Position numbers and translations under genes: made by a program. A DNA stretch of 36,114 nucleotides, taken from NCBI GenBank assembly GCA_008017155.1, contig SSGX01000030.1:1-36114 (forward strand), read 5' to 3'. Positions 1-9,226 of the stretch are shown piece after piece; positions within the stretch are counted from its first letter, which is position 1; each line of letters begins with the position of its first letter. The notes beneath the pieces were generated by a model. That model was not told where the DNA came from and made no database searches. It saw nothing but the letters and a program-made list of their open reading frames with translations. The DNA comes from Neisseriales bacterium (GTDB lineage: Bacteria > Pseudomonadota > Gammaproteobacteria > Burkholderiales > UBA11063).

Positions 1-118
1 AGCTTTCTGCAACCTCAAACTGTTTGCATATATCTGGTATTGGTTGACCACTTAAAGCTGCTAATGCCACTTTTAGTTTTATTGATGCAGGATGAGTCTT
101 TCTCATTCTAATTCCCAT
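1..118 (-). CDS. IS3-family transposase OrfA, N-terminal part (partial)
   Basis: The reading frame starts at ATG 118 and continues past the left edge. The 39 visible residues begin MGIRMRKTHPASIKLKVALA and include DICKQFEVAES. This matches the N-terminal helix-turn-helix of IS3-family OrfA proteins (the K-x-K-V-A-L-x-A-x-x-G pattern). A second in-frame ATG at 106 could also be the start. OrfA binds the element ends and is normally joined to OrfB by frameshifting, but OrfB is not visible here. Confidence 0.72.
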   Translation of the reverse strand, partial: MGIRMRKTHPASIKLKVALAALSGQPIPDICKQFEVAES

Positions 119-191
119 TAAACCATTGTCAAAATAATGTGATTTTACATCACTTGACTCTCTTAATTAATGGTCTAGTTTTCAGGGGGCA
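1..191 (-). mobile_element. IS3-family insertion sequence, right-hand part only
   Basis: The element runs off the left edge of the window. Its visible end is at about 191, where the minus strand begins with a TG terminus (TGCCCCCTGAAAACTAGACC), a layout typical of IS3-family inverted repeats. The OrfA start lies about 70 bases inside this end. The other end and any target duplication are outside the window. The insertion sits next to a coding stub (198-428), so it probably interrupted a gene of the peptide locus. Confidence 0.7.
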
Positions 192-197
192 TTATAG

Positions 198-428
198 ACC
201 ACTACAGATAAAATCGACGAACTGCTAGAACTAACTCACTATCCACAATTGATGGAAGCCAGTAACAATACCCGCAACTCGTTTAAACTGGCGGTACAGT
301 TAGCCAATAACTGTAATATTCTAAAAATAACCCGACCAACCAAATATAATTATCAGCAATTTGCTCATGAAGTACACGTGAAATTACTTGAAAATTCATT
401 GATAACAATAGGAAAAAGCAATGAGTAA
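198..428 (+). pseudogene. C-terminal stub of an unidentified protein cut off by the IS3 end
   Basis: An open frame of about 76 codons runs from just after an in-frame TAG at 195 to TAA at 426-428. It overlaps the sulfotransferase start by eight bases (ATGAGTAA), which suggests the two genes were translationally coupled. The peptide includes NSFKLAVQLANNCNILKITR and ends VKLLENSLITIGKSNE. It has no start codon of its own near the IS end, so it reads as the tail of a longer gene. The pattern of an A-x-x-L-A helix followed by a short strand recalls the C-terminus of HPr-kinase-like proteins, some of which phosphorylate the C-terminal Ser of lasso precursors. That link is a guess from very little sequence. 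Confidence 0.5.
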
Positions 429-1284: not shown

Positions 1285-2997
1285 TTACGAGAATGTATTC
1301 AAAAAATACGCCAGACTAATTGCTGGCGGCACCACCATCACAAAGTTTTGTGGACTTAGTTTGGTAATATGGGTACTACCATCACCACATAATTCTGACA
1401 ACTTATCTAAATCCAAAATTTGAGCTGCATTGCTATCACGAGGAATCTCGCGAATTAACTGCTGAAAATCACTCGCATACGCCAAAGCCTGCTCAGGAAA
1501 ACACGGGGTTGCCTCACCCTTGGTTAGACGCGTACAAATCTTATCCGGCATAATCCCGCGCATACTCCGCCGAATAATATTACGACGGTATCCATTGTTT
1601 ACTTTCATCCACCCCGGTGCCGCAAGACAAATTTCAACCACTCGTCGATCCAAGAATGGAAAACTCCGTGGCAGTCCATCACTTTCAAGGATTGCACCGA
1701 CATTCATTTCCATCACTCGATTAATCATATCAACTTGATACTGACGATGATTGGTAGCCGCAAACATCTTACCGTAGCCGGGTTTCTTTAATTGTGAATG
1801 CTGGGCTAAAAAATTATCTTTGAATGGGATTTGTGCGAGTTTACTTTCTTCCCGCAAGCGGGGGCTAAAAACATAAAGCAGCCATTCGGGAATTAATGGA
1901 CGCATAACATCGGAGATAAATAATTTAAGCCAGTTGCGCTTCATTAATTTTGCCATTGCCCGCGTTTGTTGCAACAATACTACCCAGTGCCCAGTCAAGA
2001 ATAACTCGGTGAAATAACCAAAACCATAACCCGACATTCCCAGCTCACTAAAGGTACCAACCAATAAATTTGTTACGTTCTTTTCTTTAACCAGATTAGC
2101 CAGTTTCTGTTGGGTAAAAAAACTGGTCAATGATACTGTTGTGTGGCGATCGCCAGCCACTTCGCGCAGGTCAGCTAAGCTGGCATCACTGATTTTATCC
2201 AGATAATTTATCTCGATGTTTTTTTCTCTGAATAACTCAATATATTCACGTTCATCCCGAGCTTTACCATGATAATCTAGCGGTAACACATGACTAAAGG
2301 CATAAAGTTTTTTACCTTTTGCTGCCAAAGTTTTTTCGGCAACTGATGCCATTGCCGAAGAATCCAACCCGCCACTTAATAAAACCCCCTGTTCTCCCTC
2401 GCCCAGTATTCGGCAATTCACTGCTTCACCAAATACCGCCGCAATTGCATCTGCCCACTGTTGTTCAGTTTTATAATCATAATACTTGTTAATATCTGGC
2501 GACCAATACTGATGTTTACTGATACCATCCGCATTAAAACGATAGATCTGTCCACCGGGTAGATAATAGACATTGTGAAAAATGGTTTCTGCCGATTGAT
2601 TTTGGCTATGAATTCGCTGATTAATATTCGCGATATAATGTAGATTAGGTTTACGTGGAATTTGTTCATCATAAAAGAGTAGATCAATTTCATTGGCAGC
2701 AGCAAATAAATGTTTATCATAGTAATAATACAAAGGAAAAACTGTAAAAACACTACTCAAACACACCACTTCATGACGTAAACAATGCCAGTAGCTGATT
2801 GCAAAATCGCCCTCGATGGCATTTAAAGCACTATCGCCATGTTTCTCAAATAAATTACAGATAAACTCTGCTTCACCATCCACTCCCATTTCACCGCAAT
2901 ACTCTGGTGCAATATAGTCAAGTCGGACTTTTGCACACAACATTACGATTGGTTCACTCTTTTGGCTATCAAAAATTTTACTACTAATGACTTTCAT
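1285..2997 (-). CDS. Asparagine-synthetase-like lasso peptide cyclase (McjC-type)
   Basis: The protein has 570 residues: a degenerate class II amidotransferase-like N-terminal domain (about 1-170), then an AsnB-type synthetase domain with the PPi loop SGGLDSS at 208-214. The N-terminus is MKVISSKIF, so the catalytic Cys2 needed for glutamine hydrolysis in true AsnB is absent. That is the usual state of lasso macrolactam synthetases, which adenylate an Asp/Glu side chain and close a ring on the core N-terminus. AAGGA lies eight bases before the ATG. The 30 bases upstream resemble the spacer between precursor 2 and the decayed second copy, so a precursor gene once lay directly upstream. A reverse-transcriptase remnant now separates it from precursor 1. 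Other ATP-dependent amide-forming roles are possible. Confidence 0.8.
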   Translation of the reverse strand: MKVISSKIFDSQKSEPIVMLCAKVRLDYIAPEYCGEMGVDGEAEFICNLFEKHGDSALNAIEGDFAISYWHCLRHEVVCLSSVFTVFPLYYYYDKHLFAAANEIDLLFYDEQIPRKPNLHYIANINQRIHSQNQSAETIFHNVYYLPGGQIYRFNADGISKHQYWSPDINKYYDYKTEQQWADAIAAVFGEAVNCRILGEGEQGVLLSGGLDSSAMASVAEKTLAAKGKKLYAFSHVLPLDYHGKARDEREYIELFREKNIEINYLDKISDASLADLREVAGDRHTTVSLTSFFTQQKLANLVKEKNVTNLLVGTFSELGMSGYGFGYFTELFLTGHWVVLLQQTRAMAKLMKRNWLKLFISDVMRPLIPEWLLYVFSPRLREESKLAQIPFKDNFLAQHSQLKKPGYGKMFAATNHRQYQVDMINRVMEMNVGAILESDGLPRSFPFLDRRVVEICLAAPGWMKVNNGYRRNIIRRSMRGIMPDKICTRLTKGEATPCFPEQALAYASDFQQLIREIPRDSNAAQILDLDKLSELCGDGSTHITKLSPQNFVMVVPPAISLAYFLNTFS

Positions 2998-3082
2998 TCG
3001 CTATTCCTTATGCTATACTCTACATATATCAATAAATAATATGACCAAGAACCGATTATCTCGCTTTGCTGGAATTATAAAC

Positions 3083-3790
3083 ATGCAAATTAATCTAATT
3101 AAACAACTAACCAGCCCAAAAACACTAAATCAGGCACGGCAATGGCTAATAACAGCCCGTAAAGAATATTCAGCCAATAACGACATCTGGCATTTATTAC
3201 AAGATTAGGAAGATATTTCTGTTCGCCTTCGCCAACAACTCCGTGATGGTAGTTTTAAATTTTCACCACTGCAAATTTACGAATTTCCGGATAAAAAAAT
3301 AGCGCTGTATAACTCGATTGACTCGCTGGTGCTAAAAGCCATCAGCCTGATTTTAAGCGAGTATCTCCGGGATAAGCTCACCTTTAACTGTGTACACCTA
3401 AAAAATCACGGTGGACTCAAACAAACGGTACAAGAAATCTGGGATCAGCTTCCTCAATACAAATATATGCAAAACTAGAAATCAACTCAAAAAAGCCGTT
3501 AAACTGATGTGGCAAATTCTAAATCGTTGCCAACTTACCATTGCCATTGAGAAAACCCATATTGGCAAAATTTCTCATGGTTTTACTTTTCTGGGCTATT
3601 CATTTACCATTGATCAATTTACAATCGCCAATCAAACCATATTGAAACATCCTCTAAATCGCAATCGGATTTTTGAGCACGGCGCTTCACCGACAGCGCT
3701 GGCTGCTTTTCAGAAAAATTTTAATTTTGGTGCACCGCTGGAGTCCGGTTAATGTGCAACTGGCACAAAAAACCAGTTACACGATCAATA
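3083..3790 (+). pseudogene. Reverse transcriptase remnant (RT family), broken and internally deleted
   Basis: Frame 2 from ATG 3083 encodes an RT N-terminus (NQARQWLITARKEY, then RLRQQLRDGSFKFSP and YEFPDKKIALYNSIDSLVLK). It is broken by TAG at 3206-3208 and TAG at 3476-3478. The sequence then jumps to frame 3 with KTRNQLKKAVKLM and EKTHIGKISHGFTFLGY, which are the segments that normally follow the YxDD box. The palm section with the catalytic Asp pair is absent, so roughly 100 codons were lost at a junction near 3460-3470. A last frameshift affects the RIFEHGAS tail. No template or variable repeat and no intron RNA structure was recognised, so the original class (stand-alone, intron or mobile RT) is uncertain. 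Confidence 0.75.
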
Positions 3791-3860
3791 TGCTGAAATA
3801 TTTTTCCCAACCTACGGTTAACTCCTGCGCGTTCGCAGTATGAGTTTTTGTGATGGGGGA

Positions 3861-4022
3861 TTAGCTTGGTCCGATGTTTCCGAATTCGTATGAATTACGA
3901 GGTTTTTCTGTGCTTCGATGTGTTGTATGTATTCCTATTGTTGGTGGATGATATGTTTCTTGAGGTTGTGTGTGATTGGGCTTGTTGTCCTGATGCTGAG
4001 GGGGTTGTGTGTGTGCTGTCAT
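3861..4022 (-). CDS. RiPP (lasso-like) precursor peptide 1
   Basis: This is a 53-codon gene with an excellent ribosome binding site: AAGGAG at 4031-4036, eight bases before ATG 4022. The hydrophilic leader is rich in Gln, His and Pro and contains YHPPTI at residues 24-29, matching the YxxPxI/L motif that RRE (B1) proteins recognise in lasso leaders. The C-terminal part reads EKPRNSYEFGNIGPS. It aligns with precursor 2 in Y..PTI, R, EK, YE.G, G and the final Ser. Glu46 would be core position 7 if the core starts at Lys40, with Thr38 at the -2 position where lasso leaders usually carry Thr. A Lys at core position 1 would be unusual. The intact cyclase lies downstream on the same strand beyond the RT remnant. 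Confidence 0.65.
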   Translation of the reverse strand: MTAHTQPPQHQDNKPNHTQPQETYHPPTIGIHTTHRSTEKPRNSYEFGNIGPS

Positions 4023-4164
4023 ATTTTTTACTCCTTGTTTAATGAAGAATATAATTGAGTGTACTAACTTAATTTTATCATATATTTATTACGCCGATAT
4101 AGTATCTATGAATCTTTTTGTGATTTTTTATAAATTATGTTTTGTATATTTTCTTGGGTAGTCC

Positions 4165-4593
4165 GATGTATTTGTTTGCGTAATCCGTCTTTACTAAAAC
4201 GATACACCCTCCCGCTTGGAATATAATGCACATTTTCAAAGAGAGTTTCCGCGGAATCTGTTATTTACTAAACAATTTATCAATTTCATTTGCCACAGCA
4301 AATAGCTGTTTATCATAGTAATAATATAACAAATACACAGTAAAAGCACTAGTTAAACACACTACTTCTTGCCGCAAAAGGTGCCAGTAGCTGATTGCAA
4401 AATCGCCCTCAATGGGATTTTAACCACCGTAGCCATACTCTTCAAACAATTGACAAATAAATTCAGCAGGATTATTAGATTCACACTTTAGTTGATACTG
4501 CGACGCAATATAATCTATCCGAGCTTTGGCGCATAAAATAAAAATAGTTTTGTTTGTTGAACTCTCAAAGTCTTTACTCCCAATAACCCTCAC
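4165..4593 (-). pseudogene. Decayed second copy of the lasso-type cyclase (N-terminal part)
   Basis: Reading from a GTG at 4593, with AAAGGA upstream, the sequence matches residues 1 to about 160 of the intact cyclase: LCAKARIDYIA, AEFICQLFEEYG, PIEGDFAISYWH, EVVCLTSAFTV, LLYYYYDK and NEID. It is interrupted by TAA at 4420-4422, then by a second stop after the NEID block. It then resumes in another frame with SAETLFENVHYIPSGRVYR after a deletion of about 35 codons. The deletion joint could have arisen between two similar stretches (the QIPRK and SAET codons look alike in the copy). No synthetase domain follows. The copy lies directly downstream of precursor 2. Confidence 0.85.
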
Positions 4594-4648
4594 TTATTTT
4601 TCCTTTATGTCATAACTCTATGCCACAAATTTCTTTCTTATCCCTCGA

Positions 4649-4828
4649 TTAACTAGCACCGAAACCTTGAACTCCGGACTCATATGCGCCTGGGGCTTTC
4701 TCTATATTTCTTGATAATGAGTATGTTTTTATGGTGGGTTGTTTATAGGCTAGTTTTATAGGTGCCTGAGTGGATGTAGATGCTACGGCTGGGTCGAGGT
4801 GAATTTTTTCATTTGACATGATTTTCAT
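4649..4828 (-). CDS. RiPP (lasso-like) precursor peptide 2
   Basis: This gene encodes 59 residues from ATG 4828, or 56 from ATG 4819; neither start has a strong Shine-Dalgarno sequence. The leader has YKQPTI, the YxxPxI motif of lasso leaders, about 15 residues before a core-like tail EKAPGAYESGVQGFGAS. It shares with precursor 1 the spacing Y-x2-PTI, Arg, EK, Tyr-Glu, Gly and a C-terminal Ser. The stop is 55 bases before the start of the decayed cyclase copy, the expected precursor-then-cyclase order. With cyclase 2 dead, this peptide could only mature through the surviving cyclase, if it is expressed. Too short for standard gene callers; the strongest support is its similarity to precursor 1. 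Confidence 0.62.
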   Translation of the reverse strand: MKIMSNEKIHLDPAVASTSTQAPIKLAYKQPTIKTYSLSRNIEKAPGAYESGVQGFGAS

Positions 4829-4952
4829 TCTAAATTAAATATAATTACGTGGATATAAAATATCCAGTAGGATTAACACAAGAAAAACTATTTTACATTA
4901 TAGCACAAAACATCAAATAAATGGATGACTTTCTACTGGGAATAACACTTCA

Positions 4953-5555
4953 TCACCGAGTAAGTTCACATCTGATTTTTCCAGATGGAATTCCGCTAAA
5001 ATTACCATTAGAAAGATTTAACTGCATTTGCTTCTGAATTTGCGGAGTTAGTCCAGTTTTACTAGCCTCAGTAAATTTATCACAATTCTGTTTATTCGCA
5101 ATAGTTACAGCTGATTGCCAATAACTAAGCTGGTTTTTAATAATGCTGATTGGTTCAACGTAAGTATCATTAAATTGCTGAATATGACTATTAATATCAA
5201 AAATTGAAATCTGACGCAAGTCAGGACCAGTACCATTATCAACAAAAATAAGATTCTGGAATTTACCAAAATAATAATTTGCAGGTCCCGTGATTTTCCA
5301 TGCAGACTTATCCCACTTACATTTTTTATCTGCTATTGTTTTTATTAAAATGACTTCTCCTACCTCGGAACCATTATTTTTTGTGATAACCGTAGTATCT
5401 GAATATAAATAACACTTTCCATTTGGAATATTCGTTACAGAAACGGGAGATTCACTTCCGGATAATAAATCATTATTTGCCGCAAAAACGTTAGTTATCG
5501 CAAAAACATTTAGAACAATTACAGATAAAGGTTTTAGCACAAAATACCCCCTCAT
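4953..5555 (-). CDS. Secreted protein of unknown function
   Basis: I do not recognise this 200-residue protein. The N-terminus (MRGYFVLKPLSVIVLNVFAI) is a signal peptide with probable cleavage after NVFA, about residue 29. The mature part has Cys residues at about 48, 79, 158 and 197 that could form disulfides in the periplasm. It contains NYYFGKFQNLIFVDNGTGPD, then a polar helical stretch ending in KQMQLNLSNG. It stands alone between the RiPP locus and mutL, with gaps of about 100 bases to each side. The flanks are AT-rich, and no operon partner is apparent. Confidence 0.7.
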   Translation of the reverse strand: MRGYFVLKPLSVIVLNVFAITNVFAANNDLLSGSESPVSVTNIPNGKCYLYSDTTVITKNNGSEVGEVILIKTIADKKCKWDKSAWKITGPANYYFGKFQNLIFVDNGTGPDLRQISIFDINSHIQQFNDTYVEPISIIKNQLSYWQSAVTIANKQNCDKFTEASKTGLTPQIQKQMQLNLSNGNFSGIPSGKIRCELTR

Positions 5556-5653
5556 ATATATTATGATATAGTCGTATACAAATAATATACTATAAAATTC
5601 AAATAATTAACAATTAGTTAAATTCAGATTAGATTATTAATATGAATATTAGC

Positions 5654-7558
5654 CTACTTTCCACGCATGAACATACCATCTAATTCATTCATGGTTAATT
5701 TAAACCAAGTCGGGCGACCGTGATTACAATAAGCAGAACGTTCTGTCCTTTCCATTTCACGGAGTAAGGCATTCATTTCAGCAATGGTTAGTTGATGATT
5801 AGCGCGTACAGCACAGTGGCATGCCATCGTCGAAAGAAGCTCTTCCTGATGCTCAATGATTGCATTCGACTTACCATAGTTGATAAAATCATTAAGAACA
5901 TCCAAAACCAGTTGCTCAGTCTGACCATCATCAAGAAGCATCGGGATTGCACGAATAGCTAATTGCCCTTCTCCGATTACATCGATCTCAAAACCAAGCA
6001 TCTGTAATTCAGTTTTATGCCGTTCGAATGCCTCAAGCTGAACAGGTTCAACACTTAAAGCTAATGGCATCAACAGCTGTTGTGCCGCAATCGAGTTATC
6101 ACCTAGTTGCTGCTTTAAGCGTTCAAGAATGACTCTCTCATGTGCCGCATGCATATCAACAACAATCATCCCATCTTTGGTCTGGGAGAGAATATAAATC
6201 CCTTTTAATTGCGCAAGTGCATGTCCTAAAGGCGGAAACGTCTGATCATCCTCAGCATCATCGCTTTCTGTAAAGAGACTACTTTCCTTATATTTTGGCT
6301 GAACCAAATAATTTTCATTCGGTAAGTTATCCCCCAACCACTCACGAACCAAATTATGGTTAATATTTTGAGGTGAATTATATTGATTATTATTCGTACG
6401 ACTTGAATAGTTTTGATGATCTCCATCAAAATCATTTACCGAATAAGAGAATGAGTCAGAAATATTATGATTGCGTGGCTGGTTAAATTCTGATTGCTGC
6501 CAAGTTGATCCGCTATTATTACTGGATTCAGAAAAAGTTGTACTATTTCCTAATGGTACAGCCAGTGATTTTTTTAGTGACCGGCTAATAAAGCTATGAA
6601 TTGCTCCCGAATCTTTAAACCTAACTTCGCTTTTGCTTGGATGAACATTCACATCTATATCGCTAGGATTTATAGTTAGGAATAGTATATAATTCGGATT
6701 ATGCTCATGGTGTAGTACTCCAGAAAAGCCCTGCTTGATGGCATTTTGAATAACTTTATCGCGGACATAACGCCCATTTACAAAAAATAGCTGAACATTT
6801 TTATTATTTTCAAGATAAGCCGGGTGATAAACATAACCACTTAGACTTAATTCCTCACCGGCTAATTCAGTAATAGCAAAATAACGCTCTTTATATTGTT
6901 TGCCAAATAGACTACTTATTCTAGTTAATAAGTCACCATCTGTAAGGTTATAAATTTCTTTACTGTTATGATTAAGCTTCATTGTAATTTGCGGATATGA
7001 AACAGCAATTCGTTCAAATACTGTCCTACAATGCTGATACTCAGTAGTCTCACTCTTCATGAATTTTTTACGGGCAGGAATATTGTGATAGATGTCTTTG
7101 ACTTCAACTACCGTTCCGGAATTAATCCCAACAGGAGTAATCTCGCGGATTTCACCAAAGTGACTACTAATCTGATAACCGATATTTTCCCCAGTTACTT
7201 TACTAGCAAGAGTAAACCAAGATACTGATGCAATCGATGCCAAGCCCTCGCCCCTGAAGCCAAGTGTTCGGATAGCATAAAGACCATCCTCATTCTCAAG
7301 TTTACTGGTTGCGTGACGTTCAAGAGCTAGAGATAGATCATCCTTGATGATCCCACTACCATTATCAATAACCTTGATAAGTTTACTACCACCTTCAGCT
7401 AGCTCAATACTAATTGATGTCGCACCCGCATCTACACTATTTTCCAGAATTTCCTTCAATGCTGAAGCTGGGCGTTCAACGACCTCTCCAGCGCAAATCC
7501 GATTTACTAAATTATCATTAAGCCGATGAATCCGATTAACAATCAAATTTTTCTCCAT
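5654..7558 (-). CDS. mutL: DNA mismatch repair protein MutL (endonuclease type)
   Basis: MutL links mismatch recognition by MutS to strand removal. This 634-residue copy has the GHKL ATPase domain with the E-N-x-V-D-A-G box at 39-45, DNGSG at 65-69 and GFRGEGLAS at 100-108. A Ser/Asn-rich linker lies at about 335-440. The C-terminal dimerisation domain carries DMHAAHERVILE at 468-479, a variant of the DQHAx2Ex4E nicking motif with Met for Gln, plus ACHCAVRAN and CNHGRPTW near the end. These metal-site motifs are absent from MutL proteins that depend on MutH, so this one probably nicks DNA itself. Length is normal. The DedA gene follows 23 bases downstream on the same strand. Confidence 0.96.
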   Translation of the reverse strand: MEKNLIVNRIHRLNDNLVNRICAGEVVERPASALKEILENSVDAGATSISIELAEGGSKLIKVIDNGSGIIKDDLSLALERHATSKLENEDGLYAIRTLGFRGEGLASIASVSWFTLASKVTGENIGYQISSHFGEIREITPVGINSGTVVEVKDIYHNIPARKKFMKSETTEYQHCRTVFERIAVSYPQITMKLNHNSKEIYNLTDGDLLTRISSLFGKQYKERYFAITELAGEELSLSGYVYHPAYLENNKNVQLFFVNGRYVRDKVIQNAIKQGFSGVLHHEHNPNYILFLTINPSDIDVNVHPSKSEVRFKDSGAIHSFISRSLKKSLAVPLGNSTTFSESSNNSGSTWQQSEFNQPRNHNISDSFSYSVNDFDGDHQNYSSRTNNNQYNSPQNINHNLVREWLGDNLPNENYLVQPKYKESSLFTESDDAEDDQTFPPLGHALAQLKGIYILSQTKDGMIVVDMHAAHERVILERLKQQLGDNSIAAQQLLMPLALSVEPVQLEAFERHKTELQMLGFEIDVIGEGQLAIRAIPMLLDDGQTEQLVLDVLNDFINYGKSNAIIEHQEELLSTMACHCAVRANHQLTIAEMNALLREMERTERSAYCNHGRPTWFKLTMNELDGMFMRGK

Positions 7559-8272: not shown

Positions 8273-9226
8273 TTAGTGGCTGACTACAACAGTTTTATTT
8301 ACATAGTCATAGCGAATTAGTTTATTATCTTTTATTCCAGAATATAAATAATTACCATTCACAAACAAAGAGCCAGAAACTGTATTATTATCCAACTGAG
8401 CATTAATTTTGCTCCAATGTGAACCATCATACTGAAATAATTCGCCAAGGTCATTACTAGCAAATATAAATTTTTCATCTGCAGCAACATAGCCAACGGC
8501 CTTATTTTGAGTACTTTTTAGATTCAATGATTTTAATGATTTACCATTAAAAATCAAAACATCGCCAGATTGAGTTCCTAATACTAACTGATTATTAACT
8601 TCAGCAATCGTCCAAATTAAGCTACCAACTTGTGCTATTTTATGCCAACTTTGCTTACTGGTATTATATTTATAAAGATTACCATTTTCCGAACCAATAT
8701 ATACACCACTAGAACTTACAAATAGTTTCTTTGGAATATCACCATTCTGAATTTTTGGTAAGGCAGTAACTTTTGCGTTATCTAACTGATAAACCAAATG
8801 ATCCGTATCATCAAGAGCAAATAAACTATTTTTATTATTAGCAATATCCCAAATATCGTGATCTGAAAGATTATTAAATATTTTAGTAAACTTACAATCG
8901 CTCAAATTACAAGTATAGACACCATTTCTAGCAGCTACATATAAATTATGCTTTAACTCTATTGCTTCCCAGATATACTCATTATCTGGAAGAAAATCGC
9001 CTATTTGGATAGCTTTTCTATCTACAAAATTATAATAAAAAACACCACCACGAGCAGAAGTAAAGCCAATTTTGCCATCAACAGCAAAAAAACTTGTTAC
9101 TGGAGAAACTCCAATTGGTGCTTTGTTAATTACTTGATTAGTTGATGTTACACCACTACTACTAATATTCGCAAATACGAAATTTAAAGAACTTAATAAA
9201 GCTAAAGATATTAATATTTTTTTCAT
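8273..9226 (-). CDS. Secreted beta-propeller-like protein of unknown function
   Basis: The 317-residue protein has a clear signal peptide (MKKILISLALLSSLNFVFA) with cleavage after residue 19. The mature part is built of about six repeats of 40 to 45 residues with the pattern hydrophobic-x-Gly-(Asn/Asp)-x-hydrophobic-Tyr, for example LYVAARNGVYTC, VYIGSENGNLYKY, LVLGTQSGDVLIF, FIFASNDLGELFQY and LYSGIKDNKLIRYD. This is typical of a beta-propeller (WD/PQQ/two-component-regulator type blades). No catalytic residues are recognisable, so a binding role in the periplasm or outside is the likely guess. The ribosome binding site and start codon lie in an inverted repeat (9225-9263), and a terminator closes the gene. 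Confidence 0.75.
   Translation of the reverse strand: MKKILISLALLSSLNFVFANISSSGVTSTNQVINKAPIGVSPVTSFFAVDGKIGFTSARGGVFYYNFVDRKAIQIGDFLPDNEYIWEAIELKHNLYVAARNGVYTCNLSDCKFTKIFNNLSDHDIWDIANNKNSLFALDDTDHLVYQLDNAKVTALPKIQNGDIPKKLFVSSSGVYIGSENGNLYKYNTSKQSWHKIAQVGSLIWTIAEVNNQLVLGTQSGDVLIFNGKSLKSLNLKSTQNKAVGYVAADEKFIFASNDLGELFQYDGSHWSKINAQLDNNTVSGSLFVNGNYLYSGIKDNKLIRYDYVNKTVVVSH

Follow-up and report, generated by a model that had tools for sequence, protein, structure and literature searches.

Stable lasso peptide scaffolds carry several validated tailoring modifications, among them phosphorylation, glycosylation and methylation (PMC9266682), and the closest described relatives of the locus presented here combine lasso machinery with a kinase. 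In the passages describing pseudomycoidin of Bacillus pseudomycoides, an HPr-type kinase (PsmK) and a nucleoside triphosphate (NTP)-transferase-like gene (for the nucleotidyltransferase PsmN) sit beside the lasso genes, and the modified residue is the C-terminal Ser (PMC8498205, PMC9266682). Paeninodin and the proteobacterial SyanA-type phosphorylated lassos share an H-K-D-D kinase and a conserved C-terminal Ser (PMC9266682). Paeninodin-type kinases act on that residue (PMC8498205); BsfK of the Bradymonas Bsf cluster instead phosphorylates Ser3 of a peptide with a predicted Gly1-Asp8 ring (PMC10368454). Here we describe a 36,114-nucleotide stretch of DNA, hereafter the window, from a Neisseriales bacterium (assembly GCA_008017155.1, contig SSGX01000030.1). 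It is contig C33 of a draft genome (G000; 63 contigs, 2.47 Mb, 81% complete), one of a set of 23 genomes of Aquella, a genus of freshwater Betaproteobacteria. We consider it likely that the window carries one half of a lasso-peptide gene cluster of a kinase-plus-sulfotransferase type, split by an insertion sequence (IS) element.

As in pseudomycoidin, an HPr-type kinase and an NTP-transferase-like gene accompany the lasso machinery, and both precursors end in Ser. Unlike pseudomycoidin, the locus adds a sulfotransferase, a probable second kinase reduced to a stub, an ATP sulfurylase/adenosine 5'-phosphosulfate (APS) kinase, a methyltransferase and a DUF2061 gene, together with a predicted K1-E7 ring, tandem precursors and a decayed second cyclase. 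The sulfation genes likewise set it apart from the paeninodin and SyanA type. The Bsf cluster shares the kinase, a YxxPxL leader and the Ile at -2 found in our precursor 2; its leader Tyr lies at -17, and ours at -16 by our own register (PMC10368454). Sulfotransferase genes in lasso clusters have been sighted before: passages from 2014 noted them in anaerobes and called their role unclear (PMC4289311), and a 2021 paper listed them once more, crediting the Firmicutes cases to Zhu et al. 2016 (PMC8498205). Those passages record gene sightings; the present analysis follows the pairing of sulfotransferase and kinase through 80 loci and ties it to a gene for making 3'-phosphoadenosine 5'-phosphosulfate (PAPS). 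A literature search, whose coverage excluded subscription journals and preprints, found no characterised sulfated lasso peptide, and the passages of PMC12325987 and PMC9484694 that it returned mention none.

The sulfotransferase-kinase pair and its relatives

The sulfotransferase gene occupies positions 421-1257 of the plus strand and converges with the live lasso cyclase gene (cyclase 1). Its product scores 108.7 bits against PF00685, and the elements YPKSG.TW, RxPxxxxxS, His89 and Arg115, invariant in six homologues, follow the motif pattern of cytosolic-type PAPS-dependent sulfotransferases. In this family the two motifs bind PAPS and the His is catalytic. The protein matched 47 sequences in the PDB, the best being SULT1C3 (2.7e-13), and none among phage records. 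Overlapping its start by 8 bases is the probable C-terminal stub of a second HPr-kinase-like gene (198-428, plus strand), whose N-terminus is lost at the IS. Elsewhere such kinase and sulfotransferase genes overlap by 13 bases (the Aquella genome G001), 1 base (UR115) and 4 bases (Tistrella).

Within the genus the sulfotransferase is confined to G000 and G001 (2 of 23 genomes), and the bifunctional ATP sulfurylase/APS kinase occurs in the same two. G001 encodes a 561-aa ATP sulfurylase/APS kinase, followed in turn by the kinase, the sulfotransferase and the PqqD-type lasso gene B1, beyond which the contig ends.

A scan of genome contigs with six sulfotransferases returned at least 571 relatives, of which the best 80 were kept as loci and searched with purpose-built hidden Markov models (HMMs). 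In 76 of these 80 an HPr-kinase-like gene lies just upstream of the sulfotransferase, and the H-K-D-D residues are present in 62 of the 76 paired kinases. That count disposed of the idea that the paired kinases are degenerate, which had arisen when three of the first five examined lacked the catalytic His. Among the best 80, the lasso gene B1 occurred in 64, the leader peptidase B2 in 53, and one or both in 66; the cyclase HMM matched in 58, and B1, B2 and cyclase occurred together in 40. An NTP_transf_5 gene (NTP5) was present in 39 and an ATP sulfurylase/APS kinase match, in some cases partial, in 8. Only one locus (L156) lacked kinase, B1, B2, NTP5 and cyclase altogether. The 66 loci with a kinase and B1 and/or B2 span ten phyla (one with candidate status), and a single locus among them has no phylum assignment. 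Because many contigs end near the sulfotransferase gene, these counts are lower bounds. By comparison, K, B1 or B2 occurred in 3 of 31 background loci (mostly AsnB-centred and shorter on average than the sulfotransferase loci), two of which are Aquella lasso loci. None of three distant plasmid sulfotransferases had a kinase, B1, B2 or NTP5 beside it; one had an AsnB gene that matched the cyclase HMM.

Plasmids carry the same association. Nine plasmid records held relatives of the sulfotransferase, lasso loci among them. UR115 has a precursor, kinase, sulfotransferase, B1 and a convergent cyclase; the scanned stretch showed no B2. In Thalassobaculum the locus comprises B1, two kinases, a cyclase, the sulfotransferase, B2, a second PqqD gene, an ABC (ATP-binding cassette) gene and NTP5. 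Tistrella carries the kinase-sulfotransferase pair twice, with two precursor candidates close to one copy, and a cyclase-kinase-PqqD set lies some 37 kb away from the first pair on that plasmid. Two Legionellaceae metagenome-assembled genomes (MAGs) and one gammaproteobacterial MAG (L119, L121 and L123) show a long match to ATP sulfurylase/APS kinase alongside a kinase, the sulfotransferase, B1, B2 and NTP5, a module similar to that of G001; no cyclase match was found in these stretches.

These data bear on the possibility that the window belongs to an ordinary kinase-type cluster, resembling those for paeninodin or pseudomycoidin, and that the sulfotransferase is a chance neighbour acting elsewhere, for example on a surface glycan. 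The kinase and NTP5 alone would fit pseudomycoidin (PMC8498205), the sulfotransferase lies on the strand opposite to cyclase 1, and five other lasso-bearing Aquella genomes do without it. Against chance stand the pairing with a kinase in 76 and with lasso-type B1/B2 in 66 of the best 80 relatives, and the position of the G001 sulfotransferase between kinase and B1. The convergent layout of the window is also seen in UR115 and in G059, G330, G273 and G103, four genomes from a single other genus of this order. Among the 58 loci with a cyclase match, cyclase and sulfotransferase are convergent in 16, on the same strand in 31 and divergent in 11. We regard a chance neighbour as quite unlikely, and favour a sulfotransferase that belongs to the lasso cluster.

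Some properties of the survey weigh against reading too much into it. The 80 loci were top-ranked by similarity to sulfotransferases that had themselves been chosen from lasso or kinase neighbourhoods, loci of this kind also supplied the seeds for the HMMs, and ordinary AsnB proteins match the cyclase HMM as well. The same direction is taken by the Tistrella pairs, whose scanned stretches lacked a cyclase, B1 and B2, and by the five Aquella genomes just mentioned.

Contig C4 and the proposed insertion sequence junction

The remaining lasso genes lie on contig C4, the start of which holds the genome's sole match to PF13471, the B2 leader peptidase family; none of the genome's PF00733 matches falls on C4. 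The contig opens with an IS end, followed by a truncated ATP sulfurylase/APS kinase (260-1012, matching its model from position 321 or 326), a DUF2061 gene and a methyltransferase. Next come B2 (2044-2520; NF033537, 75.7 bits, cut-off 33), an intact HPr-like kinase with H-K-D-D (2504-3385; PF07475, 39 bits, cut-off 33.3), B1 (3404-3691; PF05402, 63.1 bits, cut-off 23.4), NTP_transf_5 (3692-4849) and an ABC exporter (4998-6695). B1 and B2 are both present, outside the window, and their physical linkage to it would be by way of the IS. The H-K-D-D kinase on C4 and the terminal Ser of both window precursors form the combination expected of a kinase-tailored cluster.

At its outer end the window begins with the left end of a multi-copy IS element (1-196, minus strand), and the matching right end opens C4. 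We take the element to be of the IS3 type, on the basis of transposase fragments (rve_3). The genes abutting it on the two contigs, the kinase stub and the ATP sulfurylase, have both lost their N-termini, the outcome expected of one IS-linked deletion between divergent genes. We think it very likely that C33, the IS and C4 are joined in this order, as one cluster split by the element.

Several observations weigh against this reconstruction. The contigs carry six left and five right ends of the IS, the left ones lying no more than about 60 bases from a contig terminus, so that the C33-C4 join is unproven. Pairing the two by target-site duplication failed: they share none, whereas three other end pairs (C39 with the start of C28, C27 with C38, and C6 with C63), which by eye resemble halves of the same genes, share 3 bases; this leaves C33, the end of C28 and C23 without assigned partners on one side, and C4 and C36 on the other. 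The C4 B1 protein falls below the lasso-specific PqqD cut-off (63.6 versus 80). The kinase stub is weak by sequence, with alignments to kinase C-termini equalled by 11 and 16 of 500 shuffles and no match in Pfam or NCBIfam to residues from 249 on. Finally, in a draft of this completeness other machinery may be absent from the assembly.

Elsewhere in the genome the same IS seems, by eye, to split DNA-methylase-like and GAF-like genes and to abut a transposase-like gene (C39/C28, C6/C63 and C23). In another Aquella genome, G020, a B2/kinase/B1/NTP5 set 62-73% identical to that of C4 stands with a different cyclase, on a contig other than that of L055 (G020:C107). The L055 contig, 7.7 kb long, carries a lasso cyclase together with three precursors and showed no B1 or B2. 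One maturation set may serve several precursor-cyclase units in G020.

With the ATP sulfurylase domain truncated, the PAPS supply of G000 is probably broken, subject to the incompleteness of the draft. We found no match to PF01507 (PAPS reductase/CysD-type) in G000. Across the genus 9 of 23 genomes match this family at 20-30 bits, and we dropped the notion that the genus has no sulfate assimilation; all 14 control genomes match over the cut-off. The sparse and weak matches in the genus weakly suggest that these cells use PAPS for sulfation and not for assimilation.

The losses at the junction also raise the prospect of a dying locus, in which duplicate cyclase, reverse-transcriptase remnant and IS truncations leave nothing being made any more. 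The decayed cyclase, truncated kinase and truncated ATP sulfurylase fit such a locus; the open frames of cyclase 1, both precursors, the sulfotransferase, B2, the C4 kinase, B1, NTP5 and the ABC gene do not. We judge complete inactivity unlikely, and think that the cluster has probably lost part of its tailoring.

Precursors, cyclases and neighbouring genes

The original prediction placed two tandem precursor-cyclase units on the minus strand between 1285 and 4828, and our analysis confirmed the coordinates and strands of both precursors and both cyclases. The sulfotransferase/kinase module, the second contig and the core register are absent from that account. Lasso precursor 2 (4649-4828, 59 aa) has the leader motif YKQPTI, Ile at -2 and the predicted core KAPGAYESGVQGFGAS; lasso precursor 1 (3861-4022, 53 aa), with AAGGAG upstream of its ATG, has YHPPTI, Thr at -2 and the predicted core KPRNSYEFGNIGPS. 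Both leaders combine the Y/WxxPx(I/L) motif of lasso precursors with Thr, Ile or Val at the penultimate position, and both cores end in Ser. The two align in one ungapped 25-residue block with 10 identities (score 48), a score equalled by none of 2000 shuffles, and are homologous as judged from this protein alignment, bearing out their proposed relatedness; comparison of their DNA gave no significant match.

We set the core register by aligning 35 predicted precursors, the window's two and 33 others, from the Tyr or Trp of YxxP. Because Thr sits at position 15 in 25 of the 35 (24 of the 33 excluding our own), we place the core start at position 17. Precursor 1 has T15 and precursor 2 has I15; Ile at -2 also occurs in the experimentally studied BsfA (PMC10368454). 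In this register each core holds a single acidic residue, E7, within the 7-9 range of ring-closing acids, and we predict K1-E7 macrolactam rings from both precursors. Cleavage one residue earlier would make the ring E1-E8. Lys is predicted as core residue 1 once more in the same register, in G059 (KAKFTTPVEGGPSGHTS). Seven-residue rings are known from xanthomonins I-III (named in a title cited in PMC13352647) and appear in PMC4675943; here, by comparison with the xanthomonins, core residue 1 is Lys and kinase and sulfotransferase genes are added.

The terminal Ser recurs in 23 of 28 precursor candidates from sulfotransferase loci and in all five other Aquella precursors, and Tyr is present in 18 of the 28 candidate cores. 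The 28 comprise one further candidate and 27 of 36 found by regular expression, from which nine, one of them ending in Ser, were discarded on visual inspection as likely noise. Tyr6 and the terminal Ser are both conserved between the two window cores. A scan of the first 20 kb of C4 for a precursor gave two matches, both with Phe for Tyr/Trp and outside the lasso genes, which we took as noise.

Cyclase 1 (1285-2997, minus strand) is a lasso cyclase (C protein) of 570 aa with no internal stop and an SGGLDSS ATP-binding motif. It begins MKVISSK, with no Cys at position 2 and no N-terminal Met-Cys-Gly of a glutaminase, confirming its description as a Cys-less AsnB-type enzyme; the Met-Cys-Gly start is found in 8 of 11 AsnB-clade rows of our tree set. 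Its best NCBIfam model is the lasso cyclase NF033535, at 214.5 bits. In a 48-row tree, in which long branches were flagged, it pairs with the Aquella lasso cyclase L042 (99/93), a Mucilaginibacter lasso cyclase joins these two next (82/83), and the AsnB clade is separate. L042 (G020:C71) has two paralogous YxxPTI precursors directly upstream, much as in the window.

We weighed these data against the reading of cyclase 1 as an AsnB-type amidotransferase of a glycan cluster, with the small open reading frames present by chance. Of the proteins in the tree set, an AsnB-like one from C31 of the same genome is the most similar to cyclase 1 by pairwise identity (24% over 537 columns), and an approximately unbiased (AU) test forcing cyclase 1 into the AsnB clade was indecisive, nearly reaching rejection at p 0.052. 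A scan of genome contigs confirmed no close relatives; searches of genus and order found relatives at no more than 35% identity, highest over short stretches, several of them AsnB. Among the 25 matches listed from a plasmid tblastn (154 records), most are AsnB by annotation, with UR115, Tistrella and a Priestia lasso cyclase also present. Against the amidotransferase reading stand the missing Cys at position 2, the pairing with L042, the relatedness and leader register of the precursors, and the presence of B1, B2 and a kinase in the genome. An AsnB-type amidotransferase is highly improbable here. The assignment to lasso peptides is supported by the best model, the tree and the lasso genes on C4; the grouping with AsnB proteins named beforehand as its refutation is not what the tree gives, and the AU test leaves that separation just short of significance.

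The lasso assignment also has points to its disadvantage. Cyclase 1 scores far below the curated NF033535 cut-off of 525, a threshold that does not discriminate here because the five other Aquella lasso cyclases, at 120-253 bits, all fall below it as well. A seven-residue ring is unusual, and position 7 is the sole acid among the first ten residues only in the window's two of the 35 precursors. Precursor 2, searched at E<=1 in the 22 other genus genomes, had no match (precursor 1 was not searched). The expected conservation of the small open reading frames in relatives is borne out in arrangement, through the tandem YxxP precursors upstream of L042, the nearest in-genus cyclase, and not, for precursor 2, in sequence.

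The decayed second cyclase (4157-4593, minus strand) retains an N-terminal part only. From 4590 to 4157 it matches cyclase 1 residues 2-120, at 61% identity with two in-frame TAA stops, and residues 133-167, at 46%, with no match beyond residue 167. Over 119 codons 241 of 357 bases are identical (85, 94 and 62 of 119 at codon positions 1, 2 and 3), with a nonsynonymous rate (dN) of 0.28, a synonymous rate (dS) of 2.1, near saturation, and a ratio (omega) of 0.13. Since omega is this low and the differences are mainly at third positions, selection at the protein level acted on both copies during most of their divergence, and the second cyclase was functional for the greater part of its existence. 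The protein alignments and omega support the proposed duplication of a precursor-cyclase unit followed by decay of one cyclase. Less remains of two further proposals. The resemblance of the spacers before the two cyclases is slight, with equally high scores in 261 of 5000 shuffles and 30 of 3000 random 35-mers of the window. An inserted reverse transcriptase between precursor 1 and cyclase 1 is plausible and weakly supported: a possible remnant (3411-3752, plus strand) reaches 17.9 bits against RVT_1 (cut-off 29.6), and the two adjoining open reading frames tested gave no match. The tandem precursors and decayed cyclase are an unremarkable case of gene duplication; what merits pursuit is the sulfotransferase-kinase family.

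The gene immediately upstream of precursor 2 (4953-5555), which shares its strand, encodes a 200-aa protein that matches nothing in Pfam at E<=0.1 and, judged by eye, probably begins with a signal peptide. Farther along (8273-9226), near mutL and a VTT-domain (DedA-like) gene, the window encodes a probably secreted beta-propeller-like protein with many weak WD40-type Pfam matches. The lasso genes of L058, L056, L055 and L042 have genes for large and probably secreted proteins as neighbours, in some of which RCC1- or kelch-like repeats can be made out by eye; in G000 a gene that looks similar is split by the IS between C27 and C38.

Predicted products and significance

We predict phosphorylated, ancestrally sulfated lasso peptides. 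B1 would bind the YxxPTI leaders of both precursors, the C4 kinase would phosphorylate the C-terminal Ser of the linear precursor, and B2 would cleave one residue after the Thr or Ile at -2. Cyclase 1 would then join the alpha-amine of K1 to E7, giving seven-residue-ring lassos from both precursors for export by the C4 ABC protein. In the intact ancestor, the ATP sulfurylase/APS kinase would have made PAPS, with which the sulfotransferase and its paired kinase would have acted to sulfate the peptide, most likely at the C-terminal Ser and less likely at Tyr6. We favour the Ser because it is the more frequent of the two among the candidates (23 versus 18 of 28). In this strain the paired kinase and ATP sulfurylase genes would have lost their 5' ends to the IS, and sulfation has probably been lost; a phosphorylated, possibly glycosylated, lasso could still be made.

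More broadly, and with somewhat less than even confidence, we propose that pairing of a kinase with a sulfotransferase is the hallmark of an uncharacterised class of sulfated lasso peptides that spans phyla. The two enzymes and the NTP-transferase might place charged caps, alternative or stacked, on a single C-terminal Ser behind the threaded ring, with a cluster-encoded PAPS synthase in some lineages; Aquella would show the class in an apparently intact (G001) and an IS-broken (window) state. The window illustrates the decay of such a locus: it has lost a second cyclase, and an IS has apparently severed the PAPS supply. The linked sulfotransferase points to a little-explored chemical modification of lasso peptides, and as a marker it could let intact clusters be picked from several phyla, UR115 among them.

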